Source: an uncultured Polaribacter sp.
GTDB taxonomy: Bacteria > Bacteroidota > Bacteroidia > Flavobacteriales > Flavobacteriaceae
Direction: 5' to 3'
Length of the DNA: 64,000 nucleotides
Assembly (NCBI RefSeq): GCF_947503875.1
Contig: NZ_CANNFH010000002.1
Span: forward strand, 372,001-436,000
The notes under the pieces are model-generated. The model saw only the letters and a list, made by a program, of their open reading frames with translations. It was not told the DNA's origin and did not search any database. This document shows, piece after piece, positions 3,584-32,226 of the stretch. Position 1 is the stretch's first letter. The number at the start of each line of letters is the position of its first letter. The position numbers and the translations under genes are program-made.

Positions 3584-3647
3584 TGTTCAATACATTAGAA
3601 GTGATAAAAAATATTGATTTTTAGCATTTTAGTTTAAAAAGGTTTTG

Positions 3648-3655
3648 TATTTTTG
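3648..3655 (+). promoter_or_regulatory. -7 box TATTTTTG of rpsP-rimM
   Basis: This matches TAnnTTTG and would give a leader of about 65 bases before rpsP. The leader contains a small hairpin at 3694-3709 (GAGGT..ACCTC), a possible site of control in this ribosomal-protein operon. Confidence 0.5.
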
Positions 3656-3724
3656 CACTCGCTTATCACGAGATGGTAAGAATTTTAATAATCGAGGTCG
3701 AGAACCTCAAAAAATTAACAAATT

Positions 3725-4270
3725 ATGTCTGTAAAGATTAGATTACAAAGACACGGTAAAAAAGGGAAACCATTCTATTGGATAGTTGCTGCTGATGCTC
3801 GTGCAAAAAGAGATGGTAAATACTTAGAAAAAATAGGTACTTACAATCCAAACGTTAACCCTGCAATTATCGATTTAAACATTGATAAAGCTGTAGAATG
3901 GTTACAAAATGGTGCACAACCAACAGATACTGCTAAAAACATTTTATCTTACAAAGGTGCAATGTTAAAGAATCATTTAGCTGGTGGTGTAAGAAAAGGT
4001 GCTTTAACACAAGAGCAAGCAGATGCTAAATTTGCCGCTTGGCTAGAAGAAAAAGCAGCAAAAATTGCTGCAAAGTCAGAAGGTTTATCTAAGGCAGAAG
4101 CAGATGCAAAAGCAAAAGCTTTAGCAGCAGAAAAAGCAGTAAACGAAGCAAGAATTGAAGCAGCTAAACCAGTTGTGGAAGAAGTTGCGGAAGTGGAAGC
4201 AGCAGCAGAAGATGCAGCTGAAGTGGCTCCAGAAACTATTGATGAAGCTCAAGAAAAAGCAGCAGAATAA
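3725..4270 (+). CDS. rpsP: 30S ribosomal protein S16
   Basis: The N-terminal 80-100 residues are canonical S16 (VKIRLQRHGKKGKPFYWIVA near the start). The protein has 181 residues against 80-90 in most bacteria. The extra C-terminal part (about 105-181) is a low-complexity Ala/Glu/Lys tail, as is usual in Bacteroidota S16. The protein binds 16S rRNA during assembly of the small subunit. The rimM gene follows after 18 bases, and pairing of S16 with its maturation factor is the classical arrangement. The leader hairpin at 3694-3709 could mediate autoregulation, but this is inference. Confidence 0.97.
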   Translation: MSVKIRLQRHGKKGKPFYWIVAADARAKRDGKYLEKIGTYNPNVNPAIIDLNIDKAVEWLQNGAQPTDTAKNILSYKGAMLKNHLAGGVRKGALTQEQADAKFAAWLEEKAAKIAAKSEGLSKAEADAKAKALAAEKAVNEARIEAAKPVVEEVAEVEAAAEDAAEVAPETIDEAQEKAAE

Positions 4271-4288
4271 ATTATAATTTACACGAGT

Positions 4289-4813
4289 ATGCGTAAAGAA
4301 GATTGTTTTTATTTAGGCAAAATCGTAACAAAATATAGTTTTAAGGGGGAAGTAGTTATCAAATTAGATACTGATGAACCTGAGTTGTACACAGAAATGG
4401 AATCAGTTTACGTCGAATTTGGCGCAAACTTGGTTCCATTTTTTATTGAAAAAAGTTCGCTGCATAAAGGCAACCAATTACGTGTTCAGTTTGAAGATGT
4501 ATATTCTGAAGAAGAAGCGGATGCGATTTTAAAATCTGGTGTTTATTTACCAAATACCATGTTGCCAGAATTAACAGGAGATAAGTTTTATTATCATGAA
4601 GTTATTGGTTTTACTGTGGTAGATACTAATTTTGGTGAAGTTGGGCAGATTGTTCATATAAACGATAAAGCTGCACAACCACTTTTTGAAATTGATAGGG
4701 ATGGGACAGAAATTTTTATTCCTATGGTTGACGATTTTATTAAAAAAGTAGATAGAGAAAACAAAATAATACAGGTAAACGCTCCAGATGGATTGATAGC
4801 CTTGTATATTTAG
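4289..4813 (+). CDS. rimM: 16S rRNA processing protein RimM
   Basis: The 174-residue length is normal. The N-terminal RimM domain begins FYLGKIVTKYSFKGEVVIK. A PRC-barrel C-terminal half follows, with KFYYHEVIGFTV and the closing IPMVDDFIKKVD. It binds S19 and helps mature the 30S head. It is cotranscribed with rpsP. Its stop codon TAG (4811-4813) shares two bases with the first two bases of the tRNA-Ser gene, so the tRNA 5' end must be cut from a transcript carrying this message or come from its own promoter inside rimM. Confidence 0.96.
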   Translation: MRKEDCFYLGKIVTKYSFKGEVVIKLDTDEPELYTEMESVYVEFGANLVPFFIEKSSLHKGNQLRVQFEDVYSEEEADAILKSGVYLPNTMLPELTGDKFYYHEVIGFTVVDTNFGEVGQIVHINDKAAQPLFEIDRDGTEIFIPMVDDFIKKVDRENKIIQVNAPDGLIALYI

Positions 4814-4898
4814 AGAGGTGTCTGAGTGGTCGAAAGAGCTACCCTGGAAAGGTAGTATATGGGTAACTGTATCGAGGGTTCGAATCCCTTCCTCTCTG
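4812..4898 (+). tRNA. tRNA-Ser (anticodon GGA)
   Basis: A class II tRNA of 87 bases. The acceptor stem AGAGAGG pairs perfectly with CCTCTCT (4891-4897), and the discriminator base is G. The anticodon arm CTACC-CTGGAAA-GGTAG gives anticodon GGA. A long variable arm is present, and the T arm is GAGGGTTCGAATCCCTT. CCA is not encoded. The 3' end is the integration site of the 26.5-kb island. The gene remains complete because the element carries the matching end sequence. Confidence 0.95.
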
Positions 4899-4899
4899 C
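4887..4899 (+). other. left attachment site (attL core)
   Basis: The core CCTTCCTCTCTGC covers the T-arm and acceptor end of tRNA-Ser and one base beyond. It is identical to 31386-31398. The flanks differ (preceded by C and followed by GAAAG here). Confidence 0.85.
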
Positions 4900-4921
4900 G
4901 AAAGGAATACTAATTAGAGTC

Positions 4922-5136: not shown

Positions 5137-6387
5137 ATGCAACATTTATTCTCATTCATTTTCTACATCAAACGTAGTAAAGCAGACAAAAATGGAAAAG
5201 CAAATATTTATTTAAGGATTACTGTAAATGGTAAAAGAGCCGAATTAAGTATTTCAAGAAAGGTTGATGTTCAAAAGTGGAGTTCCTCTGCTGGCAAAAT
5301 GAAAGGTTCTTCTGGAGCGGCTCAACAACTTAATAAATATATTGATAGTATTGCTAATCGAATTTATAAAATACACCAAAGATTAGTAGAAGAAAATAAA
5401 TTAATTACTGCTATTAATATTAGAAACATTTACCAAGGTAAAAATGAGGTTCGAAAAATGACTTTAGAAATTTTTGAAAATCATAATATTCAAATGGAAA
5501 AGTTAGTTGGTAAAGATTATGCTTTAGGTACTTCAGAAAGATATAAAACAGCAAAAAAACATTTAAAAAATTATATCAATCACGAATATAAAATAGAAGA
5601 TATACCAGTAACCGAGATTGACAATAAATTTATTACAGGGTTTGAATACTATCTAAAAACAGAAAAAAATTGTGCACACAATACAACAATAAAATACATT
5701 ACTAATTTTAAGAAAATTGTTAGAATTGCATACGCCAATGATTGGATAGTTAAAGACCCGTTTTTTAACTGGAAAGGAATTTTAAAGACGGTAGAAAGAG
5801 AATTTTTGGATGAAGAAGAAATTCAAAGATTAATTGAAAAAGAATTCTCTATACATCGTTTAAATTTAGTGAAAGATATTTTTGTGTTTAGCTGCTTTAC
5901 TGGTTTAGCTTATGCAGATGTAAAAGCTTTAAATAAAGATAATACCGTGATTGGTATTGATGGTGGTCGTTGGATAAAAACAACAAGAAAAAAGACTAAA
6001 ACCAAAAGTAATATTCCATTATTGCCTTCTGCAGAAATAATTTTAAAAAAATATGAAGAGGATTCTGATGTTTTAAATTCAAATAAGTTATTACCAATTT
6101 TAAGTAATCAAAAAATGAATGCTTACTTAAAAGAAATTGCTGATATATGCGAAATAAATAAAAACTTAACTTTTCATTTGGCACGTCATACTTTTGCAAC
6201 CACTATAACACTTACTAATGGTGTTCCAATAGAATCTGTTAGTAAAATGCTTGGGCATAAATCTCTGAAAACAACACAGCATTATGCTAAAATAATTGAT
6301 AGAAAAGTTAGTGAGGATATGGCTGTTTTGAAAGATAAATTGAGTATCCATACAACTGTAAAAGAAAAGAAAGAGCTTCATTTGTAA
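5137..6387 (+). CDS. tyrosine-type site-specific recombinase (integrase)
   Basis: The protein has 416 residues with the Bacteroidota layout. An arm-binding domain (about 1-95, with IYLRITVNGKRAELSISRK) and a SAM-like core-binding domain (about 105-205) precede the catalytic domain (about 220-400). Visible catalytic residues are a lysine-rich beta hairpin (about 282-290), His347-x-x-Arg350 (HLARHTF), His374 (LGH) and the nucleophile Tyr383. At the usual first-Arg position the motif reads TGLAYADV (255-262), a replacement common in integrases of this phylum. It sits 238 bp from the attachment site and reads inward, and should integrate and excise the island at tRNA-Ser. The ATG at 5137 directly follows a terminal repeat copy. 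Confidence 0.95.
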   Translation: MQHLFSFIFYIKRSKADKNGKANIYLRITVNGKRAELSISRKVDVQKWSSSAGKMKGSSGAAQQLNKYIDSIANRIYKIHQRLVEENKLITAINIRNIYQGKNEVRKMTLEIFENHNIQMEKLVGKDYALGTSERYKTAKKHLKNYINHEYKIEDIPVTEIDNKFITGFEYYLKTEKNCAHNTTIKYITNFKKIVRIAYANDWIVKDPFFNWKGILKTVEREFLDEEEIQRLIEKEFSIHRLNLVKDIFVFSCFTGLAYADVKALNKDNTVIGIDGGRWIKTTRKKTKTKSNIPLLPSAEIILKKYEEDSDVLNSNKLLPILSNQKMNAYLKEIADICEINKNLTFHLARHTFATTITLTNGVPIESVSKMLGHKSLKTTQHYAKIIDRKVSEDMAVLKDKLSIHTTVKEKKELHL

Positions 6388-9852: not shown

Positions 9853-10230
9853 ATGCACTTTAATACTAAAATACCTGTACTCCTTAAACAAGCGTATAAA
9901 GAAGAATTAAAACAATACAACCATTATTTAGAGAATGGGCAGTATAGTAATGCTTGGCATCATTTAGAACGCAGTCACATTGTAGGACAATCTTATCCTT
10001 TAGAACATACCTATTCACATTGGTTAATGCTAAAATTTGGTTTCAGACAAAAAGACACAAAAGAGATTTTGGGTCAAATTATAAGACTGCTTGTTGGTGG
10101 TTGGAAATCATTTATAAATCACGTTCCTCTTGGTAATACAGGAGGAGCAAATGTACCACCATTAAAGAGAATGCCAATTCCAAATGATATTAAAGAAATA
10201 TTTAAAATAAATGAAAAAAAAGAAAATTAG
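9853..10230 (+). CDS. DUF3703 family protein
   Basis: The 125-residue protein is His- and Trp-rich. The central AWHHLERSHIVGQSYPLEHT and SHWLMLKFGFRQKD, and the segment VGGWKSFINHVPLGNTGG, are typical of DUF3703. The many histidines are compatible with metal binding, and members of this family are usually found beside heavy-metal transporters. The gene overlaps the ATPase start at 10211 by 20 bases, which argues for translational coupling. No membrane helix is evident. The biochemical role is unknown. Confidence 0.75.
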   Translation: MHFNTKIPVLLKQAYKEELKQYNHYLENGQYSNAWHHLERSHIVGQSYPLEHTYSHWLMLKFGFRQKDTKEILGQIIRLLVGGWKSFINHVPLGNTGGANVPPLKRMPIPNDIKEIFKINEKKEN

Positions 10231-12157
10231 TTTAAGAGATATTAAAACAAATTCTGAAAAAGAACACAGTCACGCTGATGGTCACAATCATAGTGGTCAA
10301 TCTAATAATTATAAAGCTTATGTACCAGCAATTATAAGTTTTATAATGCTAATTATTGGTATTGCATTAGATTATTTTGATGTTGAATTTTTTAAAGATT
10401 GGATTCGTATTGTTTGGTATGGTGTTGCTTATATTCCAGTTGGTTTTCCTGTAGTAAAAGAAGGTTGGAAAAGTATTACAAGAGGTGATGTTTTTACAGA
10501 GTTTTTTCTAATGTCTATAGCAACCATAGGTGCATTTATTATTGGAGAATATCCTGAAGGAGTTGCAGTAATGTTATTTTATGCAGTTGGAGAATTGTTT
10601 CAAAGTGCAGCAGTTAATAGAGCAAAAAGTAATATTAAAGCGCTACTTGATGTTCGTCCAAACGAAGCTTTAGTATATCGAAATAATGATTATAAATCGG
10701 TAAATCCTGAAACTGTAGAAATTGGAGAAAAAGTAAAAGTTCGTGTTGGTGAGAAAATTCCTTTAGATGGTATTTTATTATCCGAAAAAGGTTCTTTTAA
10801 TACTGCTGCATTAACTGGTGAAAGCAAACCTGATACGATTACAAAAGGAGAAAAAGTGTTTGCAGGTAGCATTAATATGGATGGTGTTATTGAAATTGAA
10901 ACTACTAAAGAATTTAAGGACAGTTCTATTGCCAGAATTCTGGATATGGTTCAAAATGCAACAACTCGTAAGTCTAAAACCGAATTGTTTATTAGAAAAT
11001 TTGCGAGAGTATATACACCAATTGTTGTGTTTTTAGCAATAGCTGTTACATTTCTACCTTATTTTTTTGTAGATGATTATGTGTTTAGAGATTGGCTATA
11101 TCGTGCATTAATATTTTTAGTAATATCCTGTCCTTGTGCTTTGGTAATTTCTATTCCTTTAGGATATTTTGGTGGTTTAGGTGCAGCTTCAAAAAATGGT
11201 ATTTTATTTAAAGGTGCTTCTTTTTTAGACGCAATGACCAAGATTAATATTTTGGTAATGGATAAAACTGGAACCGTAACAAAAGGAGTTTTTAAAATTA
11301 AAGATATTAAAGCCATTAAATGGGAGGAAAAGGAATTTATGAAATACTTAATGGCTATGGAGGAACAATCTACACATCCTATAGCAAAAGCTATTTTAGA
11401 GTATAAAGCAGATGGTAAAGATTTTGAAGCTTCACAAGTATCCGAAATTGCAGGTAAAGGATTAAAAGGGAACGTAAATGACAAACCTGTTTTAGTTGGT
11501 AATAAAGCCTTAATGAAGGCAAATAATATCGAAGTTTCCAAAGAAATTGACACTATTGTAGAATCCATAGTTTTAGTGGCTATTGATAACGCTTTTGCAG
11601 GCTATGTTGTTATTGCAGATGAATTAAAAGAGGATGCAAAAGAAACAATTACGGCGTTACACAAAGTAGGTATTAAAAAAATAATGATGCTTTCTGGAGA
11701 TAAAGATTCTATTACCCAAAAAGTAGCATTAGAATTAAATATTGAAGAAGCCAAAGGCGGTTTATTACCCGAAGATAAATTAAATGAAGTAGAAAAGTTA
11801 AAACAAAATTCAGAAAATAAGATTGCTTTTATTGGTGATGGAATTAATGATGCACCTGTTTTAGCAGCAAGTGATGTTGGTATTGCAATGGGAGGTTTAG
11901 GTAGTGATGTTGCCATTGAAACAGCAGATGTAATTATTCAGACAGATCAACCTTCAAAAGTGGTAAAAGCGATTCAAATTGGTCGTTCTACAAGAAAAAT
12001 TGTATGGCAAAATATCGGATTAGCATTTGGCGTAAAAGTGATTGTCCTAATTTTAGGAGCAGGTGGTTTAGCTACAATGTGGGAAGCAGTTTTCGCAGAT
12101 GTTGGTGTTGCTTTGTTAGCAATATTGAATGCTGTAAGATTACAGAGAATTTATTAA
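10211..12157 (+). CDS. heavy-metal P1B-type ATPase (Zn/Cd/Pb type)
   Basis: The protein has 648 residues. The N-terminus lacks an HMA domain and instead has a short His-rich stretch (EHSHADGHNHSG, about 18-29). Membrane helices follow from about 37. The transport site is SCPCALVIS (Cys307 and Cys309), the phosphorylated Asp351 lies in DKTGTVTKG, the P1B-specific His-Pro is at 389-390, the TGES loop is near 202, and the hinge GDGIND is at 542-547. CPC followed by ALVIS is the form seen in Zn/Cd/Pb exporters. It should pump divalent cations out of the cytoplasm. The His-rich N-terminus may be its metal sensor. It overlaps the DUF3703 gene. Confidence 0.93.
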   Translation: MKKKKISLRDIKTNSEKEHSHADGHNHSGQSNNYKAYVPAIISFIMLIIGIALDYFDVEFFKDWIRIVWYGVAYIPVGFPVVKEGWKSITRGDVFTEFFLMSIATIGAFIIGEYPEGVAVMLFYAVGELFQSAAVNRAKSNIKALLDVRPNEALVYRNNDYKSVNPETVEIGEKVKVRVGEKIPLDGILLSEKGSFNTAALTGESKPDTITKGEKVFAGSINMDGVIEIETTKEFKDSSIARILDMVQNATTRKSKTELFIRKFARVYTPIVVFLAIAVTFLPYFFVDDYVFRDWLYRALIFLVISCPCALVISIPLGYFGGLGAASKNGILFKGASFLDAMTKINILVMDKTGTVTKGVFKIKDIKAIKWEEKEFMKYLMAMEEQSTHPIAKAILEYKADGKDFEASQVSEIAGKGLKGNVNDKPVLVGNKALMKANNIEVSKEIDTIVESIVLVAIDNAFAGYVVIADELKEDAKETITALHKVGIKKIMMLSGDKDSITQKVALELNIEEAKGGLLPEDKLNEVEKLKQNSENKIAFIGDGINDAPVLAASDVGIAMGGLGSDVAIETADVIIQTDQPSKVVKAIQIGRSTRKIVWQNIGLAFGVKVIVLILGAGGLATMWEAVFADVGVALLAILNAVRLQRIY

Positions 12158-15700: not shown

Positions 15701-16482
15701 CACAAGTTATAAAAAGTGAAGATACTTTTTTAATTGGTTATGTACTGTTTGATAAATTAGATGGTTTTGCAGAGGTTGATGTAGTAGAAAATGCCCAAGA
15801 ATTGTTTCAACAAAAAATAGATTCTGGTGAATTAACGGTTCCAAAAGGCATCAGTTATAAATTTACTGGAACTTATGAAAACCAATTACGTGCAGAAAAA
15901 ACACTGTCTGTTATAGTTCCATTAGCATTAGCAATTATTTTCTTGATTTTATATTTCCAGTTTAAATCGGTTGCTACATCATTTATGGTTTTTACAGCAA
16001 TAACCATTGCTTTTGCAGGTGGTTTTATTATGATTTGGTTATATGGGCAAGATTGGTTTTTCAATTTTAGCTTTTTTGGTGAAAATATGCGAGACTTATT
16101 TAATATGAAAACCATCAATTTAAGTGTAGCAGTTTGGGTTGGTTTTATTGCATTGTTTGGTATTGCTACAGATGATGGTGTAGTTATGGCAACCTATTTA
16201 ACACAAACTTTTAAACGTGAAAAACCTGCAGATAAAAAGAGCATACGAGCTTCAGCTTTGGAAGCTGCAGAAAAAAGAATTCGTCCTTGTTTAATGACTA
16301 CTGTTACAACAATTTTAGCATTATTACCAGTTTTAACCTCTACAGGAAAAGGAAGCGATATTATGATTCCAATGGCGATTCCAATTTTTGGAGGAATGGT
16401 CATAGATATCACATCTTATTTTCTTTTACCTGTTTTATATAGTTGGAGAGAAGAATTCAAATTAAAAAAAGCAAACAAATGA
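12754..16482 (+). CDS. cusA: CusA-type heavy-metal RND efflux pump
   Basis: The ATG at 12754 starts MLNKSIKFLIENK, the usual HME-RND beginning, and gives about 1242 residues. The motifs DAIPDIGENQQIVF and GRSPQDIEDQITYP mark the CusA (Cu/Ag) group, with periplasmic Met-rich pore segments such as LVMLQTGMRAPMG. Two sets of membrane helices flank the porter domains; TM4 holds the proton-relay acidic residues in GIAIAIGTMVDVGVILAEN. It forms the inner-membrane engine of a tripartite pump with the TolC-like protein (ATG overlapping the stop) and CusB. Around residue 783-791 the frame reads through a REP-like repeat (15100-15127), inserted in a region that varies among relatives. Confidence 0.93.
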   Translation: MLNKSIKFLIENKLVAVLLLLLFVGWGTVNAPFNWDIPFLPSNPVAVDAIPDIGENQQIVFTKWDGRSPQDIEDQITYPLTTSLLGIPGVKTIRSSSMFGFSSIYIIFEEDIEFYWSRSRILEKLNSLPNNLLPEGVNPALGPDATGLGQIFWYTLEGRDEKGNVTGGWDLQELRSIQDYYVKYGLSSASGVSEVASIGGYVQEYQVDVNPELMRQYNIGLNQVVKAVKSSNQDIGAQTLEINQAEYLVRGLGYIKSIEDIENAVVTSEDFTAIKIKDIGKVSLGPATRRGLLDKEGAEVVGGVVVARYGANPMEVITNVKAQIEELKGGLPTKVLADGRTSQVTIVPFYDRTELIEETLDTLNEALTLEILITILVIIVMVFNLRASILISGLLPVAVLMVFVTMKLFNVDANIVALSGIAIAIGTMVDVGVILAENMIRHLDDKKLQTREDGTKYTTDVVIYNATAEVSGAILTAVLTTIISFVPVFTMIGAEGKLFRPLAFTKTMALSASLVIALFLIPPFAAYLFRKTTLKKSFNHIINIALIVAGIVITISGYWLGVILIAFGVNGLLVITGKLNKKNNNLINIIISCTAIIFLLAEYWRPLGFNRSILINLLFVAIICFGILGIFSVFRKYYGQILKWALANKVLFLIIPATVLIFGGWILNNTGKEFMPSLNEGSFLLMPTSLPHSGVAENKRVLQQLDMAVATIPEIETVVGKAGRTESALDPAPLSMYENMIQYKTEYMRNSEGKRQRYKVNEDGDFELKNGGFVTNPNNSKNVTLSQVERSQLIEDEDGVYYRNWRPEISSPDDIWNEIVKVTKLPGVTSAPKLQPIETRLVMLQTGMRAPMGIKVKGQDLKQIEAFGLQLESFLKQAEGVKVEAVFADRIVGKPYLLIDINREKIARYGISIEDVQNVLKVAVGGMQLTQTVEGRERYGIRVRYPRELRNNPVSIKDIYIPVEKGNSVPLSELATIRYEQGPQVIKSEDTFLIGYVLFDKLDGFAEVDVVENAQELFQQKIDSGELTVPKGISYKFTGTYENQLRAEKTLSVIVPLALAIIFLILYFQFKSVATSFMVFTAITIAFAGGFIMIWLYGQDWFFNFSFFGENMRDLFNMKTINLSVAVWVGFIALFGIATDDGVVMATYLTQTFKREKPADKKSIRASALEAAEKRIRPCLMTTVTTILALLPVLTSTGKGSDIMIPMAIPIFGGMVIDITSYFLLPVLYSWREEFKLKKANK
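15100..15127 (+). repeat. REP-like repeat inside the cusA coding frame
   Basis: GTCACCTTGAGCC-AAGTCGAAAGGTCTC is a close copy of the repeat at 24726-24753. It is read in frame as NVTLSQVERSQ. Confidence 0.7.
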
Positions 16483-17696
16483 AAAATTTAATTTTTACAC
16501 TAATAAGTTTTTTAGCTTTTGGTTTTTCAAATGCACAAGAATTAAATGTACTTATTGAGCAAGCTTTAAAAAATAACCCAGCAATTCAAAAATTTGAATT
16601 GCAATATAATATTGCTTCAGAAAAAATTAATGAAGTAAATACATTACCAAATACAGAATTTGGTGTTGGGTATTTTGTAAGTGAACCAGAAACCAGAACT
16701 GGAGCACAACGATTTAGAATTTCTGTAAAACAAATGTTGCCTTGGTTTGGTACAATTACTTCCAGAGAAAGCTATGTTTCTTCTTTGGCAAAGGTTAAAT
16801 ATGAAGATATTGTTATTGCCAAACGAAAACTAATTACTTCAGTTTCTCAATCCTATTATAATTTGTATGCAAATAAAGCAAAGCAAAATGTTTTAAAAGA
16901 AAATATAAAACTGCTTGAAACTTATGAAACATTAGCATTAACATCCGTTGAAGTTAATAAGGCATCTATGGTAGATGTATTGCGTTTGCAAATGCGCCAA
17001 AATGAAATGGAGCAATTATTGGCAATTTTAAATCAACAGTATTTAGCTGAACAAACTACCTTCAATAAGTTATTGAATCGAGATAAATCGATTTTTATAA
17101 ATGTTGTGGGTAATTTGAATTTTCCTGCAGAAAATTTTGATACCAAAACTAATAATTTATCAGTTCATCCAGAATTATTAAAGTACGATAGATTGTATCA
17201 ATCTATAGAAAAATCAGAATTATTAAATCAGAAAGAAAGCGCTCCAATGATTGGTTTTGGTTTAGATTATATAAATGTTACAGAACGTCCAAATATTAGT
17301 TTTAGTGATAATGGTAAAGATATTTTGATGCCAATGGTATCTCTTTCTATTCCTATTTTTAATAATAGTTATAAATCAAAAACCAAACAAAACAGCTTAC
17401 AACAAGAAGAAGTTTTAGCACAGAAGCAAGAACGAAAAAATAAATTAGAAACGTTTTTAGATAAAGCAAAAAACGAACGCATTTCTGCAAGAATTAGTTA
17501 TAAAACACAAACTAAAAATCTGAAACAAGCTAAAAATGCAGAAGAAATTCTAATTAAAAACTACGAAACTGGTACTATAGATTTTAATGATGTTTTAGAT
17601 ATTCAAGAGTTACAATTGAAGTTTAAAATGAATCAAATTGAATCTATAAAATCTTACTTCGTACAAACCACAATTATTAATTATCTAACCAATTAA
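16479..17696 (+). CDS. TolC-family outer-membrane efflux protein (CusC role)
   Basis: The ATG at 16479 overlaps the cusA stop (ATGA) and begins a signal peptide MKNLIFTLISFLAFGFSNAQ. The 405-residue protein has two repeats of long amphipathic helices separated by beta segments, as in TolC, with no lipobox. It should form the outer-membrane channel of the Cus pump. Translational coupling to cusA supports a fixed ratio. The adaptor CusB is encoded 2.6 kb downstream in the same orientation. Confidence 0.88.
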   Translation: MKNLIFTLISFLAFGFSNAQELNVLIEQALKNNPAIQKFELQYNIASEKINEVNTLPNTEFGVGYFVSEPETRTGAQRFRISVKQMLPWFGTITSRESYVSSLAKVKYEDIVIAKRKLITSVSQSYYNLYANKAKQNVLKENIKLLETYETLALTSVEVNKASMVDVLRLQMRQNEMEQLLAILNQQYLAEQTTFNKLLNRDKSIFINVVGNLNFPAENFDTKTNNLSVHPELLKYDRLYQSIEKSELLNQKESAPMIGFGLDYINVTERPNISFSDNGKDILMPMVSLSIPIFNNSYKSKTKQNSLQQEEVLAQKQERKNKLETFLDKAKNERISARISYKTQTKNLKQAKNAEEILIKNYETGTIDFNDVLDIQELQLKFKMNQIESIKSYFVQTTIINYLTN

Positions 17697-19050: not shown

Positions 19051-19776
19051 ATGAAACACACGTATAATATTACAGGAATGACTTGTGGTGGTTGTAAAGC
19101 TTCCGTAGAAAAATATTTAGGAGATATAAATAATGTTACCAATGTTTCTGTAAATCTCGAAAAAGGAGTAGCAGAAGTTACAATGGAAAAACATATAGAA
19201 ACCAAAGTTTTAAAAGATGCTTTGCCAGAAAAATATACACTTTCAGAAAAAAAAGAAGAAAAGAAAGAAATACCAGCAGTAGATTTTGGTGAAGAATTTG
19301 AAAAATCAAAATTCGAGCAATTAAAACCATTATTTCTAATCATCTTTTATATTACAACTGCAGGTATTTTATTGAACTACAAAAACTGGAATTGGAGTAG
19401 TTTTATGCTCGATTTTATGGGTTTATTCTACATTGTATTTAGCTTTTTTAAAATGTTAGATTTAAAAGGATTTCCAGATTCATTTAGAATGTATGATCCT
19501 TTGGCAAAAAGAGTTCCTATTTATGCTAAAATTTATCCCTTTATAGAAACTGCATTAGGTCTAATGTTTTTAATGCGTTTTGAAATAACTATAGCCCTAA
19601 TAATTACACTGGTTATTTTAGGTGTTACTACAATTGGAGTTACAAAAACACTTTTAGACAAAAAAGCAATTAGATGCGCTTGTCTTGGTACTGCTTTAAA
19701 GTTACCAATGACAGAAGCTACTTTTATAGAAAACGCAATTATGATTATAATGGCAATATTAATGTTAACAATTTAA
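19051..19776 (+). CDS. HMA domain fused to a MauE/DoxX-like membrane protein
   Basis: The protein has 241 residues. Residues 1-68 are an HMA domain with MTCGGC (Cys12, Cys15). A charged linker (KKEEKKE) leads to about four membrane helices (about 92-240). The last part has the motif IRCACLGTALKLP, with another Cys-x-Cys pair typical of the MauE-like group. It may receive copper on the cytoplasmic side and pass it to a membrane redox or transport step. It has no precise known function. About 100 bp without a gene separate it from the AraC fusion gene, room for a promoter. Confidence 0.75.
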   Translation: MKHTYNITGMTCGGCKASVEKYLGDINNVTNVSVNLEKGVAEVTMEKHIETKVLKDALPEKYTLSEKKEEKKEIPAVDFGEEFEKSKFEQLKPLFLIIFYITTAGILLNYKNWNWSSFMLDFMGLFYIVFSFFKMLDLKGFPDSFRMYDPLAKRVPIYAKIYPFIETALGLMFLMRFEITIALIITLVILGVTTIGVTKTLLDKKAIRCACLGTALKLPMTEATFIENAIMIIMAILMLTI

Positions 19777-22524: not shown

Positions 22525-23370
22525 TTGAAAAAGATTGAAAAAATTATTAAAGAGTTAGATCACAATTTAGAATTTTTAGAAAAAGAAATTGAAGGTGCAA
22601 TTGAAAGAGCAGAAGAAGGTATAAGAATTACGAAACGAGTTTTAGGTCAAATAAAAAATTTGTTTCTTAAAATCAGAACGATGTCTAAAAGTGAAGAAAT
22701 TCATTTTTTTAAAAATTCTAAACCTTATGTTTTTAGCAAATTAATTTATTATGTAAAATTATTTAATATAGAAAGTAAAAGACCACGAAGTAGTAATAAA
22801 TCACAAATTAAATACTTCAATAATCATATTGATAAACTGCAAAATTATTTTAATGATAATTTAGAGTTTTATCATTATTTTAGAAGAGGTGCTAAATTTC
22901 TCGATGAAGAATATTTTATGAGAGGTAAAGTAGATTTAAGATTATTTCCAGATTCACTTTCTTTTTTTACTGATGATACGTTTTCAACAAGTCACGATTC
23001 TTCTGTTGCAACAATACTTGCTTATGATATGTTAATCATCTATTTAAAAATAGAAATAGATAAACTTGAAAATTATAGTACAATGGAAACAAATTATGGA
23101 GCCTTTAAGAAACAATCAAAATTATTCTGGACTGGTAACAAAACAGATCTAATAGAATTGATTTATGCACTACATAGTTCAGGAGCAATTAATAGTGGTA
23201 CAGCAGATATCAAAGAATTGGCATCGGTTTGTGAGCAGATGTTTAATATTGAATTAGGCGATTATTACAGAACCTTTTTAGAAATAAAATCAAGAAAAAT
23301 AAATCAGACAAAATTTATTGATAAAATAAGAGATTCACTGCTCAAAAAGATGATTGAGTCAGACGAATAA
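22525..23370 (+). CDS. rteC: RteC-type regulator of the element
   Basis: The 281-residue protein is of the RteC family: coiled-coil N-terminus (about 1-60) and a helical body with TNYGAFKKQSKLFWTGNKTDLIELIYALHSS-like sequence (split over 190-220) and INSGTADIKELASVCEQ. In CTnDOT, RteC activates the excision operon. The only in-frame start I see is TTG at 22525. A 10-bp tandem duplication (ATTGAAAAAG) at this point puts the natural ATG (22518) out of frame; removing one copy restores M-K-I-E-K-I-I-K-E. Expression may thus be reduced in this copy. Confidence 0.85.
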   Translation: MKKIEKIIKELDHNLEFLEKEIEGAIERAEEGIRITKRVLGQIKNLFLKIRTMSKSEEIHFFKNSKPYVFSKLIYYVKLFNIESKRPRSSNKSQIKYFNNHIDKLQNYFNDNLEFYHYFRRGAKFLDEEYFMRGKVDLRLFPDSLSFFTDDTFSTSHDSSVATILAYDMLIIYLKIEIDKLENYSTMETNYGAFKKQSKLFWTGNKTDLIELIYALHSSGAINSGTADIKELASVCEQMFNIELGDYYRTFLEIKSRKINQTKFIDKIRDSLLKKMIESDE

Positions 23371-23620: not shown

Positions 23621-23684
23621 TATAATCTGATTGTCAATTCGTAATATTAGAAAAGAAAAAGTATTAATTTTTAAAAAAAAAGCT

Positions 23685-23963
23685 ATGCCAACCTCAATCA
23701 TCACAACAGACGATTTAAGAGAATTCAAGGAAGAATTATTAGAAGACATCAAAGCTATGATTAATCATCAATCTGGTTTTGCGCCTAAAAAATGGCTCAA
23801 GTCTCCAGAAGTTAGAGATTTACTAAGTATCTCTCCAGGAACGTTACAAAATTTAAGAATTAACGGCACGTTACCTTACACAAAAGTTGGTGGTGTTATT
23901 TACTACGATTACGAAGAAATTACCAAAGTGTTAGAAGAAAACCGTGTTCATAATAAGTTCTAA
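23685..23963 (+). CDS. small helix-turn-helix protein (MerR/excisionase-like)
   Basis: The ATG at 23685 gives 92 residues; in-frame upstream TTG codons overlap the leader. A helical N-terminus (about 8-24) precedes an HTH_17-type domain with WLKSPEVRDLLSISPGTLQNLR followed by the wing PYTKVGGVIYYDYEEI. Proteins of this type serve as excisionase or activator in many Bacteroidota mobile elements. It leads the replication module and sits behind the putative RteC sites, which fits a role in the switch to excision. Confidence 0.78.
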   Translation: MPTSIITTDDLREFKEELLEDIKAMINHQSGFAPKKWLKSPEVRDLLSISPGTLQNLRINGTLPYTKVGGVIYYDYEEITKVLEENRVHNKF

Positions 23964-23978
23964 ATTTTTAATAATGCT

Positions 23979-24053
23979 GTCACTTCGAGTGATTTTAGTA
24001 TCAAGTTGAACTTTAGTGAAATTTGATGCTAAAATTGTATCGAGAAGTCTATA
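23979..24053 (+). repeat. dispersed stem-loop repeat
   Basis: GTCACTTCGAGTGATTTTAG and the downstream complement ending ATCGAGAAGTCT form a long imperfect stem of about 75 bases. The ends match the Gly/Cys-type REP sequence family that also occurs at 24726 and 15100 (CTTGAG/GTCGAAAG). It directly precedes the replisome organiser gene. Confidence 0.6.
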
Positions 24054-24055
24054 CT

Positions 24056-24724
24056 ATGCAAAACGTAAACTACATCAAACACCTAAAAGGTGTATTTATA
24101 CAATTCTCAAAAGACAATCGTTTAAATCCAACACATATAAGTTTATATATAGCATTATTTCAAATTTGGAATAGTAATCGATTTTTAGAAGAATTCTATA
24201 TCAATCGAGAAGAAGTAATGCGTTTTTCTAAAATAGGATCTAAATCAACTTATCATAAATGTATTAAAGAATTAAGTCACTGGAAATACATCGTTTATTT
24301 TCCTTCACACAATCCTTACAAAGGCAGTAAGATTAAGATGTTCAAATTTGAGACAAGTAATGAACAAGCACTGGTATCTATTAATAAACATATACAAACT
24401 AGTAAAAACAATAAAAACACTAGTAAACTTGACCAGCCAAAAAATGAGAAAGAAGTAATTCATTTTTTTGAAAAGGAAAACTGGCCAATAATTGAGGCTC
24501 AAAAATTTTATAACCATTACCAAGGAATTGGTTGGAAAGTTGGGGGTAAAACAAAAATTGTCAATTGGCAAGCAACAGCAAAAAATTGGATGATAAAAGC
24601 GGAAGAAATTATGTCGTCTCGAGCGCAGTCGAGAGAAAAAAACAAAGAAACACAAAACTCAATTAGCCAGAATATGGACAACTTAAAGACAAGTAAAAAC
24701 AAAAATTACAATGAACCTTTATAA
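24056..24724 (+). CDS. replisome organiser-like replication initiation protein
   Basis: The ATG at 24056 gives 222 residues. The N-terminal 90 residues form a winged-helix domain (NPTHISLYIALFQIWNSNRF; SKIGSKSTYHKCIKEL). A low-complexity linker (Ser/Asn/Lys) leads to the C-terminal DnaD-like motif AQKFYNHYQGIGWKVGGKTK followed by IVNWQATAKNWM. This motif pattern (YY-x3-GW-x-V-G...W-x3-x-x-W) is the hallmark of phage replisome organisers that recruit a helicase loader, here encoded next. Near residue 188 the frame contains a small palindromic repeat copy (24612-24634, read as SSRAQSRE). Confidence 0.75.
   Translation: MQNVNYIKHLKGVFIQFSKDNRLNPTHISLYIALFQIWNSNRFLEEFYINREEVMRFSKIGSKSTYHKCIKELSHWKYIVYFPSHNPYKGSKIKMFKFETSNEQALVSINKHIQTSKNNKNTSKLDQPKNEKEVIHFFEKENWPIIEAQKFYNHYQGIGWKVGGKTKIVNWQATAKNWMIKAEEIMSSRAQSREKNKETQNSISQNMDNLKTSKNKNYNEPL
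24612..24634 (+). repeat. REP-like repeat inside the replisome organiser gene
   Basis: TCTCGAGCGCAGTCGAGAG is a variant of the dispersed CTTGAGCGCAGTCGAAAG repeat and reads in frame as SRAQSR. Confidence 0.6.
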
Positions 24725-24725
24725 A

Positions 24726-24753
24726 TGTCACCTTGAGCGCAGTCGAAAGGTCT
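24726..24753 (+). repeat. REP-like repeat between the two replication genes
   Basis: The sequence TGTCACCTTGAGCGCAGTCG followed by AAAGGTCT lies in the 36-bp gap between the two genes. Copies with the same core occur at 15100 and 24612. Confidence 0.7.
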
Positions 24754-24760
24754 ATGAACC

Positions 24761-25423
24761 ATGAATAATTTACAACCTCACATAATCCAAGAAGGAAGCG
24801 TTCAATACCAATTAGGTGCACAAAGCGGAAATCAAATAATATACGATTTCCCAAAAATGCTAATCTATTTAGAAGCAAAGGGTAAATTAATGTTTGGTAA
24901 AAACTTCAAAATATATATGGAGGACGAAGCAACTTTATACAAACTATGTATTTATTTTATTCGTGATTTTAAAACCTGCAGAAAATTAAATATAGATCCG
25001 AACAAAGGTATTTTATTATCAGGTCCAGTAGGTTGTGGTAAAACCAGTTTAATGAAATTATTGCCATTTATTGTTCCACATCATAATCAACATAAATTAA
25101 TTCCTGCAAGAAATATCACGTTTAGTTTTAATAAAAGTGGTTTTAAAATTGTAGAAGATTATGGTAATAATGGTTTTTATTGTTTTGACGATTTAGGTGT
25201 AGAAACAACAGGAAGACATTTTGGAAAAGATTGCAATGTAATGGGAGAAATATTACTATCACGTTACGATTTATTTCTAAAGCGAAAGATTAGAACACAC
25301 GCAACCACAAATTTAAATGCACAAGAAATAGAAAGTAGATATGGTATTCGTGTACGCTCCAGAATGAGAGAGTTATTTAATTTAATTGCTTTTGATAAAG
25401 AAAGTATTGATAAGCGAAAATAG
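24761..25423 (+). CDS. DnaC/IstB-like helicase-loader ATPase
   Basis: The protein has 220 residues. The Walker A motif GPVGCGKTS is at about 87-95, Walker B is FYCFDDLG (about 137-144), and the sensor region has ATTNLNAQEIESRYG and the arginine finger RVRSRMRELF. This is the form of DnaC-like loaders encoded by phages and mobile elements. Together with the DnaD-like protein it should load the host replicative helicase at an origin on the element. This implies that the excised island replicates. Confidence 0.82.
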   Translation: MNNLQPHIIQEGSVQYQLGAQSGNQIIYDFPKMLIYLEAKGKLMFGKNFKIYMEDEATLYKLCIYFIRDFKTCRKLNIDPNKGILLSGPVGCGKTSLMKLLPFIVPHHNQHKLIPARNITFSFNKSGFKIVEDYGNNGFYCFDDLGVETTGRHFGKDCNVMGEILLSRYDLFLKRKIRTHATTNLNAQEIESRYGIRVRSRMRELFNLIAFDKESIDKRK

Positions 25424-25459: not shown

Positions 25460-25467
25460 TAACTTTG
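25460..25467 (+). promoter_or_regulatory. -7 box TAACTTTG of the toxin-like trio
   Basis: This is an exact TAnnTTTG match that ends seven bases before the ATG at 25475. It gives the trio its own, nearly leaderless promoter, independent of the replication genes. Confidence 0.5.
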
Positions 25468-25474
25468 TAAAATA

Positions 25475-26377
25475 ATGGAAGTAGCTAAAAATATAGAAAG
25501 TTTAAGGAATTTAGCACAAATTCTATCTCCTGCTAATTTTAAAAAAATAGTAAAGGAGAGGAATTATTTTGATACATTCTATCGCATTAGTAAGCATACT
25601 AAAATATCTGACACTACCACTAATTTTGAAGTCATTAATAACATTTACAAATCACTTTTAGGTACTTATAAAAATGAATATGTCTATAAAAATATACTTT
25701 TAAATCAAAAACTTCTTAAAAAATATAGCTTAAAAAAATCAATTGCATTATCAGAATTTAAAATTGGTAATTCAATAGCTGACTTTGTAATTCTAAATGG
25801 TGAAGCTCGTGTTTATGAAATAAAAACAGAATTAGACGGTTTAGATAAATTAGATAAACAGTTAGCAGATTATAGAAAATTTGCAAATAAAATCTATGTT
25901 GTTTCAAATTCTAAACACATACCAAATCTTTTAGTTAAATTTCATAATACAGATATTGGCTTAATAGAGTTAACAAAAAGGAACGCATTAAAAACTATTA
26001 AAAAAGCAGGTCAAAATTTCTTATTTTCTCACGAAACACTATTCAAAAGTTTACGAAAAGATGAATATACTAATTTGTTGAAAAAATATTTTGGAAAAGT
26101 TCCTAATGTTCCTAACACGCTAATTTTCAGAGAATGTTTTAAACTTTCAAAAAAAATAGATATTTTAGAGTTTCAAAAATTAGTTATTAAAGAATTAAAA
26201 TTTAGAAATATTTCTAATCCAGAATTATTTAATGAAGATTTAGTACCAGATTCATTAAAACACATCTGTTACACTTTAAATTTTTCAAATGAAGAATTTA
26301 TTGAATTAGAAGATTTTCTATATAAAAAAAGTAAGCTATGTATTTCCCATATGTCAGAGGTAAACAATTTGAATTAA
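25475..26377 (+). CDS. sce7726 family protein (PD-(D/E)XK nuclease-like)
   Basis: The protein has 300 residues without a signal or membrane segment. The centre has the arrangement SEFKIGNSIADFVIL...YEIKTELDGLDKLDKQ: Glu94, Asp103, Glu115 and Lys117, the order of a PD-(D/E)XK catalytic core, then Gln129 and Tyr133 as in sce7726-type proteins. The C-terminal half is helical and of unknown role. The gene is the first of three; it overlaps the next by 40 bases. A DNase acting on foreign nucleic acid is the likely role, but no activity is known to me for this family. Confidence 0.72.
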   Translation: MEVAKNIESLRNLAQILSPANFKKIVKERNYFDTFYRISKHTKISDTTTNFEVINNIYKSLLGTYKNEYVYKNILLNQKLLKKYSLKKSIALSEFKIGNSIADFVILNGEARVYEIKTELDGLDKLDKQLADYRKFANKIYVVSNSKHIPNLLVKFHNTDIGLIELTKRNALKTIKKAGQNFLFSHETLFKSLRKDEYTNLLKKYFGKVPNVPNTLIFRECFKLSKKIDILEFQKLVIKELKFRNISNPELFNEDLVPDSLKHICYTLNFSNEEFIELEDFLYKKSKLCISHMSEVNNLN

Positions 26378-27276
26378 TCGCGTTAAGAGAATTATGTGGT
26401 TTGCTTTCAAGTTTTTCTGCTAAAATTTCACCTGTAATTGAACCAATTAAAGGTTCTTCTACTTTAAAATCTGCTTTAAAGACTTTAGCATCTAAAAATG
26501 TAAATTTTAGTATTATTATTAATCCTAAAGTGGGTGGTTTAGTTGGTGAGGGTAATAAAATTATAGATCTCCTAAAAGAGGTACTGCAACACTATAATAA
26601 TTATCAAATTGCAATAATCATCGATACAAAAATTGAAGAGCAAATTCCAGCTTTAATTGAAGGTATAAATAATTTAGAGTTAGATTATAAAGGCATTACT
26701 TTAATTCATAATTCTGAAATATCAGAAGGTAGTATCGATGAAATTAAAAATAACATAAATGTTATTTACAACATAATTTACTTTAGCAATACAAGCAGAC
26801 GTTATTATAGATTGTTTTCTGAAGAAAGTAGAATTTCTTTAGATGATTACTTTAGAGATATGCCAAGAAATGCAGATTATCTTGAAGTAGGCGAAAGTCC
26901 TTTTTCTGAAGAATATAGTTTTTATAAAGATGAAGGCTTTTTTGGTTTTTCTGACTTTTTAACGGTTGGCGATAATTATTCAGATTCAGGTTTTTTACCA
27001 AGAGCTGTAGCAATGCATTTATCATATATTAATGCATCAGGCAAAATAATGGTAAAACATTTTGTTTCTGACTCAAATGGTGATGTATCTGATATAGGTG
27101 GTAAATTCGCAGAAGCACTTGAAAAACTTGTAAATTGGTGTGTTAACAACAATATAAATACCCAAGCTGTAGAAGTATATAAAGACCTTCGTAATCGTGG
27201 TCATTTCCCTGGTTTAGGTACCTTAAAAAAATTGTCAATAATGAATCATATCGAATTAATTGTAGATAAGATTTAA
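26338..27276 (+). CDS. sce7725 family (beta-protein-like) protein
   Basis: The protein has 312 residues. The N-terminus MYFPYVRGKQFELIALREL is the standard beginning of sce7725-type proteins; the body alternates strands and helices as in a TIM-barrel-like fold (SIIINPKVGGL, IAIIIDTKIEEQIPAL, GFSDFLTVGDNYSDSGF). No catalytic motif is obvious to me. It overlaps the sce7726 gene by 40 bases, and the pair is conserved as neighbours in other genomes, so a shared complex is likely. Its end is two bases before the RES gene. Confidence 0.72.
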   Translation: MYFPYVRGKQFELIALRELCGLLSSFSAKISPVIEPIKGSSTLKSALKTLASKNVNFSIIINPKVGGLVGEGNKIIDLLKEVLQHYNNYQIAIIIDTKIEEQIPALIEGINNLELDYKGITLIHNSEISEGSIDEIKNNINVIYNIIYFSNTSRRYYRLFSEESRISLDDYFRDMPRNADYLEVGESPFSEEYSFYKDEGFFGFSDFLTVGDNYSDSGFLPRAVAMHLSYINASGKIMVKHFVSDSNGDVSDIGGKFAEALEKLVNWCVNNNINTQAVEVYKDLRNRGHFPGLGTLKKLSIMNHIELIVDKI

Positions 27277-27278
27277 TT

Positions 27279-28325
27279 ATGAATTGTTGTGTAAATTGTT
27301 TCAATAGCGAATACTTAATAAGTATTATTAATGCTGATGATAGAAATGGTAATTGTGATTTTTGTGAATCAATAAACGTTTCTATTTATGCAGCAAGAGA
27401 GTTAGCTCCTTTTTTTCGTAATATAATTTCTTTGTATCAAGTAGATATTAATTCAGTATTTGATTTAGCACAATCCTTAAAAAAGGATTTTAATCTCACC
27501 AGTAATTTAGTTGCTAATAATAGATTGTTATTTGAATCTATTTTTGTGGATGAAGAAGAAATTCTAAATGAATTATTTAATGTTAATGTATCGTCAGAAA
27601 TAAAGATTGAATTAATTTCTGAAACCAATCAAATTCATAGTATTTGGAAAGAATTTAAAGACGAAATAAAATCTATAAATCGCTACCACATTAAAAATAC
27701 TATTGATTTAAATAAATTAGCTAATTTTTTTAATCACGAAAGTTTCTACAAAACGATAAAAAAAGGTCGCATTTTTTATAGATGTCGCATATCAAATAAA
27801 ACAGGCTTTACTACAAATCAAATGGGTAATCCACCTAACGAACTTGCTACTGGTGGTAGAGCAAATCCTAAAGGAATATCTTATTTATATGTAGCTGATA
27901 AGTTAGAAACATCATTGTATGAAACCAGAGCATCTATATTTGATTATGTTACAGTTGGCGAATTTCGTTTGAATGAAGATTTAAAAATTCTTAATTTAAG
28001 AAATCCTAAAGATGATCCAATTCCTTGGTCAGAAAACGAAGCAATAGAAGACTTTTTAACCTATGTTCCATTTATTCAAACTTTACAAAAAGAAATCTCA
28101 TTACCAATAAGAAAAAGAGATAAACAATTAGATTATATTCCTACTCAATACATTTCAGAATATATTAAATCATTAGGTTTTGATGGTGAAGAATACCAAA
28201 GTTCATTGTTTGCTGAAGGATATAATTTAGCAATTTTCAATCCTGATAAATTAGAATGTATTACTACAAAAGTTTATGAAATTGAAAATATAGAACTACA
28301 TCATAAATTACTTCCTAACAATTAA
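27279..28325 (+). CDS. RES-domain protein with HEPN/RES zinc-ribbon N-terminus
   Basis: The protein has 348 residues. The N-terminus has cysteine pairs C4-x2-C7 and C26-x2-C29, the pattern of the HEPN/RES N-terminal domain. Residues 165-330 form a RES domain: Arg168 or Arg170 (FYRCRIS), GGRANPKG (192-199), Glu215 (SLYETRAS) and Ser308 or Ser309 (EYQSSLFAEGYNLAIF), the Arg-Glu-Ser triad that names the domain. RES toxins degrade NAD+. No Xre-type antitoxin is adjacent, unlike in RES-Xre toxin-antitoxin pairs. It follows sce7725 by two bases, so one transcript should carry all three. Confidence 0.8.
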   Translation: MNCCVNCFNSEYLISIINADDRNGNCDFCESINVSIYAARELAPFFRNIISLYQVDINSVFDLAQSLKKDFNLTSNLVANNRLLFESIFVDEEEILNELFNVNVSSEIKIELISETNQIHSIWKEFKDEIKSINRYHIKNTIDLNKLANFFNHESFYKTIKKGRIFYRCRISNKTGFTTNQMGNPPNELATGGRANPKGISYLYVADKLETSLYETRASIFDYVTVGEFRLNEDLKILNLRNPKDDPIPWSENEAIEDFLTYVPFIQTLQKEISLPIRKRDKQLDYIPTQYISEYIKSLGFDGEEYQSSLFAEGYNLAIFNPDKLECITTKVYEIENIELHHKLLPNN

Positions 28326-31385: not shown

Positions 31386-31398
31386 CCTTCCTCTCTGC
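31386..31398 (+). other. right attachment site (attR core)
   Basis: CCTTCCTCTCTGC is identical to the tRNA-Ser 3' end at 4887-4899. It marks the right edge of the island. Confidence 0.85.
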
Positions 31399-31413
31399 AA
31401 AGAAAAAAGTTTA

Positions 31414-31445
31414 AAAGTTCTGTGTTTTTCACAGAACTTTTTGGT
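31414..31445 (+). terminator. chromosomal terminator originally behind tRNA-Ser
   Basis: AAAGTTCTGTG and CACAGAACTTT form a perfect 11-bp stem with a five-T loop, followed by T. Without the island it would lie about 15 bases after the tRNA. Confidence 0.8.
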
Positions 31446-31460
31446 TAAAAAAATATTACA

Positions 31461-32183
31461 ATGTCTACAGTTTTTAAATTTAAAGAGGTTACAATTCATC
31501 AAGATAAAACAGCTATGAAAGTAGGTACAGATGGTGTTTTGCTAGGTGCTTGGTGTACTGTTGATAATTATACTGATACAATTTTAGATATTGGTTCTGG
31601 AACGGGAGTCATTGCTTTAATGTTGGCACAACGTTGTGATGCCATGACTATTGATGCTGTAGAAATCGATGAGAATGCTTACGAACAAACTGTAGAAAAT
31701 TTTGAACAATCAGATTGGGGAGATCGTTTGTATTGCTATCATACAAGTTTTACTGAATTCGCAGATGAAATTGCCGAAGAAGAAGAAACCTATGATGTAA
31801 TTGTTTCAAATCCGCCATTTTATACTGATGATTTTGAATCTGAAAATGAAGGCAGAAACAAAGCACGTTTTACTTCCGCTTTATCTTTTGAAGCATTGTT
31901 GAGTGGAGTTGCAAAAATTTTAGCTAAAAAGGGAGTTTTCTCTGTAATTATTCCTTTTAAAGAGGAAGAAAGTTTTATCAATCTAGCAAAAGCACAAAAT
32001 TTGTTTTTAAACAGAGTTTGTCATGTTCAAGGAAATGAAACTTCAGCAATTAAAAGAAGTTTGTTAGCTTTTTCTTTTGAGAAGAAAGATGTTGAAAAGA
32101 ACACTTTAATTATAGAAATAGAGCGACATAAATATACCCAAGATTATATAGATTTAACAAAAGATTTTTATTTGAAAATGTAG
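31461..32183 (+). CDS. tRNA1(Val) adenine-37 N6-methyltransferase
   Basis: The protein has 240 residues. The SAM-binding motif I is ILDIGSGTGVIALMLAQR, the acidic residue ends the next strand (DAVEID), and the N6-adenine methylase motif NPPFY is present (VSNPPFYTDDF). The start KFKEVTIHQDKTAMKVGTDG is typical of the TrmN6/YfiC family. It methylates A37 of tRNA1(Val). It is the first chromosomal gene right of the island. Confidence 0.9.
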   Translation: MSTVFKFKEVTIHQDKTAMKVGTDGVLLGAWCTVDNYTDTILDIGSGTGVIALMLAQRCDAMTIDAVEIDENAYEQTVENFEQSDWGDRLYCYHTSFTEFADEIAEEEETYDVIVSNPPFYTDDFESENEGRNKARFTSALSFEALLSGVAKILAKKGVFSVIIPFKEEESFINLAKAQNLFLNRVCHVQGNETSAIKRSLLAFSFEKKDVEKNTLIIEIERHKYTQDYIDLTKDFYLKM

Positions 32184-32226
32184 TTTTGTGTTCCTTTCTC
32201 TTATTTTAGTCGGTAAAATAACTCAC

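Follow-up and report, generated by a model that had tools for sequence, protein, structure and literature searches.

We describe here a unit of three genes (the trio) in a stretch of 64,000 nucleotides from an uncultured Polaribacter sp. (contig NZ_CANNFH010000002.1, positions 372,001 to 436,000; hereafter the window). The trio encodes a protein of the sce7726 family, a protein of the sce7725 family and a protein in which an N-terminal zinc ribbon precedes a RES domain, and it likely works in the manner of the P4 anti-phage system gop-beta-cII, although it falls outside the membership of that system. The features of the locus are the following:

25460-25467, forward strand: -7 box TAACTTTG, located by eye, 7 bp 5' of the sce7726 ATG
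25475-26377, forward strand: sce7726-family gene, 300 amino acids (aa)
26338-27276, forward strand: sce7725-family gene, 312 aa
27279-28325, forward strand: zinc-ribbon and RES-domain gene, 348 aa

A preliminary description of this DNA had reported three genes locked together by a 40-bp overlap and a 2-bp gap, behind a promoter box of their own. The coordinates of the open reading frames (ORFs) agree with the overlap between the sce7726 and sce7725 genes and with the gap between the sce7725 and RES genes, and the three form a single operon. The promoter was recovered in part: TAACTTTG is present, which we take to be a -7 box of the Bacteroidota TAnnTTTG type, while no clear -33 TTG was seen by eye in the sequence upstream of the trio. 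As also described before, no Xre/ParS antitoxin gene adjoins the RES gene in the window; its flanking genes are sce7725 and sce7726, followed upstream by an AAA ATPase, and a helix-turn-helix (HTH) gene, for an HTH_17 protein at 23631-23963, is not adjacent to it. On the 3' side of the trio, the next ORF of at least 60 aa begins about 950 bp away, on the opposite strand. A RES-Xre system with a hidden antitoxin was rejected, since no such gene adjoins RES.

The first protein scores 165.5 bits against NCBIfam sce7726 (NF033832, cut-off 70), and the second 291.5 bits against sce7725 (NF033831, cut-off 60), the family to which it had been assigned previously. Both are full members of families that carry a name only, and one paper that mentions them simply lists the genes; searches against the sequences of solved structures gave no useful relative for any of the three trio proteins. 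The cII protein of P4 reaches 151.4 bits with the same NF033832 profile (cut-off 70) and thus belongs to the same family as sce7726. The PADLOC model 'cll', which also matches the window protein (57.3 bits), we read as P4 cII; the PADLOC paper does not explain the names 'cll' and 'beta'. In an alignment of 44 sequences, residues E94, D103, E115 and K117 of sce7726 are invariant, and P4 cII retains the same E, D, E and K, which suggests catalysis. The preliminary description had named these residues as a PD-(D/E)XK core; they proved invariant, and D103, E115 and K117 give the D...E-x-K pattern of such a core. A weak profile match (MmcB-like, E 0.12) points to the nuclease fold, which is a putative one for sce7726.

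The AlphaFold2 model of the sce7725 protein (pLDDT 94.2) matches TIM-barrel folds; since many TIM barrels, mainly metabolic ones, match it at a similar Z, no enzyme family was assigned from the fold. Among viral proteins, the best match to this fold comes from Gordonia phage Powerball (379 aa, E 5e-9, TM 0.66). A search with a Beta protein as query led to gene 33 of Powerball (E 4e-9), which also encodes 379 aa and scores 75.4 bits with a Beta profile; from this length we take the two to be the same protein. Powerball gene 32, annotated as 'exonuclease', stands tail to tail with gene 33 and scores 46.3 bits with the sce7726 profile, and the closest viral fold relative of sce7725 would thus be the Beta half of a Beta/cII pair. 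P4 beta is itself a Pfam Beta_protein (191.3 bits). Alignment by hhalign of sce7725 with six Beta proteins gave a probability of 96.3% over the N-terminal 143 columns; with P4 beta added, the values were 90.7% in local mode (111 columns) and 95.8% end to end (302 columns), and five unrelated pairs used as controls stayed at or below 2.3% in both modes. By profile and fold, we thus regard sce7725 as a TIM-barrel protein and a remote relative of P4 beta and Pfam Beta_protein. The Powerball pair, a Beta-type and an sce7726-family gene on a phage, differs from the trio in its convergent order, and no RES gene lies beside it in the 3.8 kb read. Genes 33 and 32 (L252, 1429-3241) are four genes from an integrase, and a HicA-like toxin is annotated nearby.

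The third protein matches Pfam RES (PF08808) at 60.4 bits (cut-off 23.2), and its predicted fold is closest to the NAD+ phosphorylases MbcT and NatT. In the alignment of 44 sequences C7, C26, R168, R170, E215 and S308 are invariant and C4 and C29 are conserved at 90% or above, the cysteines forming CxxC...CxxC pairs in the N-terminal zinc-ribbon part. The earlier reading of this protein was therefore sound with respect to the RES domain, its R, E and S residues and the CxxC cysteines; its N-terminal type is less clear, as HEPN_RES_NTD1 (PF18870) remains sub-threshold at 22.0 bits against a cut-off of 27.4. We propose that the protein is a putative NAD+-consuming effector. NatT is described as an NAD+ phosphorylase in PMC11535050, which also states that no RES toxin-antitoxin system has yet been implicated in immunity. 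A conserved R-E-S triad is named for RES proteins in PMC12457610, and this triad is used in the present analysis.

To describe how the three genes are held together, a set of 103 loci was compared, made up of the best 80 of 470 relatives from named species genomes, loci from Bacteroidota genomes, plasmids and phages, and the window; these are by design the nearest sce7725 relatives, and the counts describe this subfamily. Eleven of the 103 repeat the same sce7725 (a genome in two collections, or identical copies), leaving 92 distinct. All three families occur in the same order and on the same strand at 97 of the 103 loci, or 86 of 92 distinct sce7725, a count that includes L079 (split sce7726), L096 (a RES ORF of 121 aa) and L102 (RES incomplete at the contig end). 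The co-occurrence of the three families, which had earlier been proposed as a check, is thus borne out, and a chance gene cluster was rejected. The pair of sce7726 and sce7725 without RES is found at four of the distinct loci: L028, L035 (interrupted by an insertion element), L059 (RES remnant) and L074 (contig end); sce7725 stands alone at two, L030 and L036. Among 395 Bacteroidota genomes, 14 hold an sce7725 over the cut-off; 13 of these have the full trio, and L028 is without RES.

A search from the RES side in the same 395 genomes, in which at most five candidates per genome were scored, gave 30 places. Thirteen were full-length and strong (above 320 bits), and all 13 lie at sce7725 loci; the other 17 fell short in length or in score (245 bits at best), and two of these lie at the end of a contig. 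A RES gene occurring mostly without the other two, which the preliminary description had named as damaging to its proposal, is thus not what we see for this subfamily, while distant zinc-ribbon RES proteins do stand alone. Four such proteins, of 394-496 aa, were noted at L191 (6144-7547), L192 (6215-7405), L193 (2148-3332) and L194 (1725-3215), and the stretches fetched around them showed no sce gene.

Pairwise divergence at 53 loci correlates between sce7726 and sce7725 (r = 0.905), sce7726 and RES (0.867) and sce7725 and RES (0.882), compared with a permutation maximum of 0.255; part of this correlation is shared descent. The nearest neighbours agree at 35, 30 and 35 of the 53 loci, respectively. 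Two stricter statements were rejected: that RES always accompanies the pair, given L028 and seven of 27 loci on viral contigs without RES, and that the pair is strictly essential for RES, given L079, where sce7726 is split and RES intact. Damage in the reverse direction, where RES is frameshifted, truncated, split or a remnant beside an intact pair, was observed at L059, L096, L208 and in E. coli UTME-9 (L225, 13844-14868); taken together, the damaged loci are too few to decide.

Relatives of the pair also occur apart from RES. In the 395 Bacteroidota genomes, sce7726 passes the cut-off at 27 places, of which 14 coincide with sce7725 loci and 13 do not, and 12 of the latter were fetched for a reading of their neighbours. 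In six of the 12 (L178, L179, L180, L182, L183 and L184), a Beta_protein gene adjoins sce7726 in a tail-to-tail overlap, and P4 beta and cII likewise lie tail to tail. In the remaining six, no Beta neighbour was seen, as judged by eye only, and L187 is without an ORF match. The Pfam Beta_protein model gave no match in 99 Bacteroidota genomes nor in controls, so that this particular search says nothing on absence. HTH and M78/ImmA-like proteins lie beside the sce7726/Beta_protein pairs in L179 and L182 (Pfam) and in L183 (PADLOC capH/capP models); a SocA/Panacea antitoxin-like protein is found beside the pair in L184 and a DUF3800 protein in L180 (Pfam). The partners around the pairs in L179, L182, L183 and L184 suggest a module with exchangeable partners.

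Of the known systems, gop-beta-cII is the closest in composition. It confers protection from lambda and P1, and its gop gene becomes toxic when beta is missing (Rousset et al. 2022, PMC9122126). The trio shares with it the cII family (as sce7726), a remote relative of beta (as sce7725), an arrangement of three genes with one toxin, and carriage on mobile DNA. The toxins differ: that of P4 is Gop (133 aa, with an N-terminal half that appears hydrophobic by eye), whereas the trio has the zinc-ribbon RES protein, and Gop scores 2.8 bits with the RES profile, which is chance level. Unlike P4 beta, the window sce7725 also falls below the detection of Pfam Beta_protein. With the cII family found, but neither PF14350 nor Gop, we do not count the trio as a member of gop-beta-cII. 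The earlier statement that no named system has this composition was nonetheless too strong: apart from its toxin, the trio has the composition of gop-beta-cII, sce7726 being of the P4 cII family and sce7725 a remote relative of P4 beta.

PD-lambda-2 (Vassallo et al. 2022, PMC9519451) resembles the trio in that its third component is 'related to a P4 phage antitoxin' and in its toxin-antitoxin-like abortive infection; PADLOC PD-Lambda-2_C models match the Beta_protein partners of sce7726 in five of six tested. Its other partners are a HigB-like protein and an Xre-peptidase, neither of which is among the window neighbours scanned, and RES and sce7726 are not named in the part of that paper available to us. 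With the RES-Xre systems (MbcTA, NatRT, ParST, Xre-RES), the trio has in common the RES domain with its R, E and S residues and its fold; it differs in having no adjoining Xre/ParS, an added N-terminal zinc ribbon, and sce7725 and sce7726 as partners. A published description of the trio was not found, judged by title and abstract, among the RES/immunity matches listed (preprints lay outside the search). The idea of an anti-phage RES protein is not new, as a review had raised the possibility that RES toxins carried by phages inhibit superinfection by other phages or bring about dormancy (PMC9503650).

Based on this, we consider it probable that the trio is an abortive-infection system of the gop-beta-cII class with an exchanged toxin, in which a beta/cII-like pair gates a NAD+-consuming RES effector. 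The sce7725 and sce7726 proteins would act as a gating module that holds RES quiet and senses infection; upon infection, the pair would release RES, which would then consume NAD+, with phosphorolysis, the reaction of MbcT and NatT, as the most likely route, and the fall in NAD+ would stall the infected cell before phage release. Sensing may in part depend on sce7726 recognising or cutting nucleic acid, in view of the nuclease core that this protein retains. We infer NAD+ loss, phage protection and a physical complex each from the comparisons above, as well as the division of sensing and restraint between the partners; the direction of control is uncertain, P4 beta being antitoxin-like and PD-lambda-2C more like a defence trigger. 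More tentatively, and with appreciable doubt, we suggest that the beta/cII pair is a portable sensing and gating module that has been joined to killers of the Gop type, the HigB/Xre-peptidase type, possibly the SocA/Panacea type, and the RES type, in which case the trio would be the first demonstrated RES NAD+ phosphorylase immune system. In the trio, a RES gene is firmly linked to relatives of a pair with proven anti-phage function and lies in defence islands, which offers a direct test of RES in immunity. The name-only families sce7725 and sce7726 gain a biological frame in P4 beta and cII, and the comparison suggests reuse of the P4 pair as a module whose toxin can be exchanged.

The same defence role could be played by a different chemistry, with RES transferring ADP-ribose to protein, RNA or DNA (ParT modifies Prs in this way) and with the zinc ribbon selecting the target. 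The CxxC...CxxC pairs conserved in the 44 trio RES proteins would suit this, and RES domains of one fold do differ in activity, ParT being an ADP-ribosyltransferase and VPA0770 a predicted one (PMC12457610); the fold similarity to MbcT and NatT speaks for NAD+ phosphorolysis, and we judge ADP-ribosylation to be unlikely. We would give about the same low weight to the view that the pair itself is the effector, sce7726 cutting phage DNA as a nuclease, sce7725 recognising it, and RES serving as an accessory or backup suicide module. The invariant E, D, E and K, kept in P4 cII, fit such a role, as do the pair-only loci on viral contigs and L028; against it stand the RES gene beside the pair at 86 of the 92 distinct loci and the fact that P4 toxicity resides in gop (PMC9122126). 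An addiction module of the toxin-antitoxin kind, serving to stabilise mobile elements and not to counter phages, seems to us slightly less probable still: RES proteins are known as toxins of toxin-antitoxin systems (PMC11535050), the window trio sits in an integrative element, and a full trio is present on four of the six plasmid records read (of 12 with an sce7725 match), but both published relatives of the pair serve phage defence (PMC9519451, PMC9122126), and the E. coli trios have annotated defence neighbours. Finally, metabolic proteins often contain TIM barrels or NAD-using domains, and a housekeeping operon of NAD+ or nucleotide metabolism without a role in conflict could be imagined; the scattered occurrence (an sce7725 over the cut-off in 14 of 395 genomes), the presence in several phyla and the mobile carriage make it very improbable.

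The defence neighbours, an enrichment of which the preliminary description had suggested looking for, were clearest in E. coli, where 18 of 5,426 genomes hold a trio 96.9-97.8% identical to that of L037 (the search sees close DNA only). Six of these 18 loci were read, and for all six the records annotate defence-related genes nearby; the annotations comprise KwaB-like, Pycsar effector, TIR, caspase, BREX, AbiE and type I restriction-modification (R-M), and the six islands are mutually related rather than independent. For the Bacteroidota, the support is limited to counts of PADLOC families: nine neighbourhoods gave 212 families in 104 ORFs, as compared with 6 in 126 ORFs from other stretches of the same genomes, a contrast that counts families and not genes and in which many matches are overlapping R-M models. 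The nine are those of the 13 other Bacteroidota loci that had a usable control (two of the controls were short), ORFs above 1500 aa were dropped, and one of the nine, L028, is without RES. Ten large neighbours picked by size included clear R-M proteins at L021, L022 and L024, a match to a dCTPase model at L020 and a weaker helicase match at L025; those picked at L023, L026 and L028 gave no defence match. In four of the six E. coli islands (L224, L225, L226 and L228), a KwaB-like gene lies upstream of the trio with at least two genes in between.

Besides the relatedness of the E. coli islands and the nature of the PADLOC counts, a number of observations weigh against the proposal that a beta/cII-like pair gates a RES effector. 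The link between sce7725 and beta is remote: sce7725 has no match to Pfam Beta_protein (PF14350) up to E 1, the sce7725 profile gives P4 beta only 12.0 bits and Powerball gene 33 only 1.7 bits, and the first local hhalign alignment spans the N-terminal half only. The gene order differs too, as beta and cII of P4 lie tail to tail with gop first, whereas the trio is co-directional with RES last. The split sce7726 beside an intact RES in L079, a metagenome-assembled genome (MAG), is awkward for an essential antitoxin role. In PD-lambda-2, the beta-type protein is required for defence and not for neutralisation (PMC9519451), so that the role of sce7725 may be sensing rather than restraint. With respect to the toxin, a review describes RES domains as without the usual S and E of the ADP-ribosyltransferase clade and with Y and N instead (PMC9503650), which conflicts with the R-E-S triad of PMC12457610. 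On viral contigs, lastly, the pair is without a recognised RES at 7 of 27 loci, or 6 of 17 distinct ones (L207, L214, L215, L217, L219/L220 and L222), and may therefore act on its own; among these 27 loci, ten are copies of one trio, and two of the seven loci without RES, L219 and L220, are identical. We speculate that such viral pairs either act in defence on their own or serve phages as antitoxins against the RES of a host.

In the window, the trio lies on a 26.5-kb integrative element in tRNA-Ser(GGA), which is recognised by its integrase, its direct repeats and the corresponding empty site of a related genome. In the latter, a genome of the same genus (L247), window positions 3606-4913 join 31386-32185 at the same tRNA. 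The preliminary description of the unit as island cargo next to a replication module agrees with this arrangement, given the replication-type genes directly upstream. The features of the element are:

4887-4899, forward strand: attachment repeat, left copy, 13 bp, CCTTCCTCTCTGC, at the 3' end of tRNA-Ser(GGA) 4812-4899
5137-6387, forward strand: tyrosine integrase (PF00589, PF13102, PF17293)
10211-12157: P-type ATPase, metal-related cargo
16443-17696: outer-membrane efflux protein, metal-related cargo
19051-19776: heavy-metal-associated domain protein, cargo
22525-23370, forward strand: RteC protein (PF09357, 266.7 bits)
23631-23963, forward strand: HTH_17 protein (Pfam), in the proposed replication-type module directly upstream of the trio
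24023-24724, forward strand: ORF without a Pfam match, in the same module
24761-25423, forward strand: AAA ATPase with weak DnaI/PRK08116-type matches, adjoining the trio upstream
31386-31398, forward strand: attachment repeat, right copy, 13 bp, at the end of the element

The genes from 23631 to 25423 (HTH_17 protein, ORF and AAA ATPase) would together make up the replication-type module.

The hosts of the trio include Bacteroidota, Bacillota, Pseudomonadota and MAGs labelled Chlorobiaceae, Anaerolineae and Gastranaerophilales. In a Pasteurella locus (L071), the nearest neighbours of sce7726, sce7725 and RES are all Bacteroidota copies (L070, L070 and L067, respectively), which points to transfer between phyla. 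Three Polaribacter loci (L039, L040 and L041) hold the trio with common flanks. The two loci with sce7725 alone, L030 on an E. faecium plasmid and L036 from the record 'Listeria phage LM 4-14-1' (OR848224), have no recognised sce7726 or RES beside sce7725; they are identical at 10,069 of 10,082 bases, and judged by its sequence, the 'phage' record looks like a plasmid contig.

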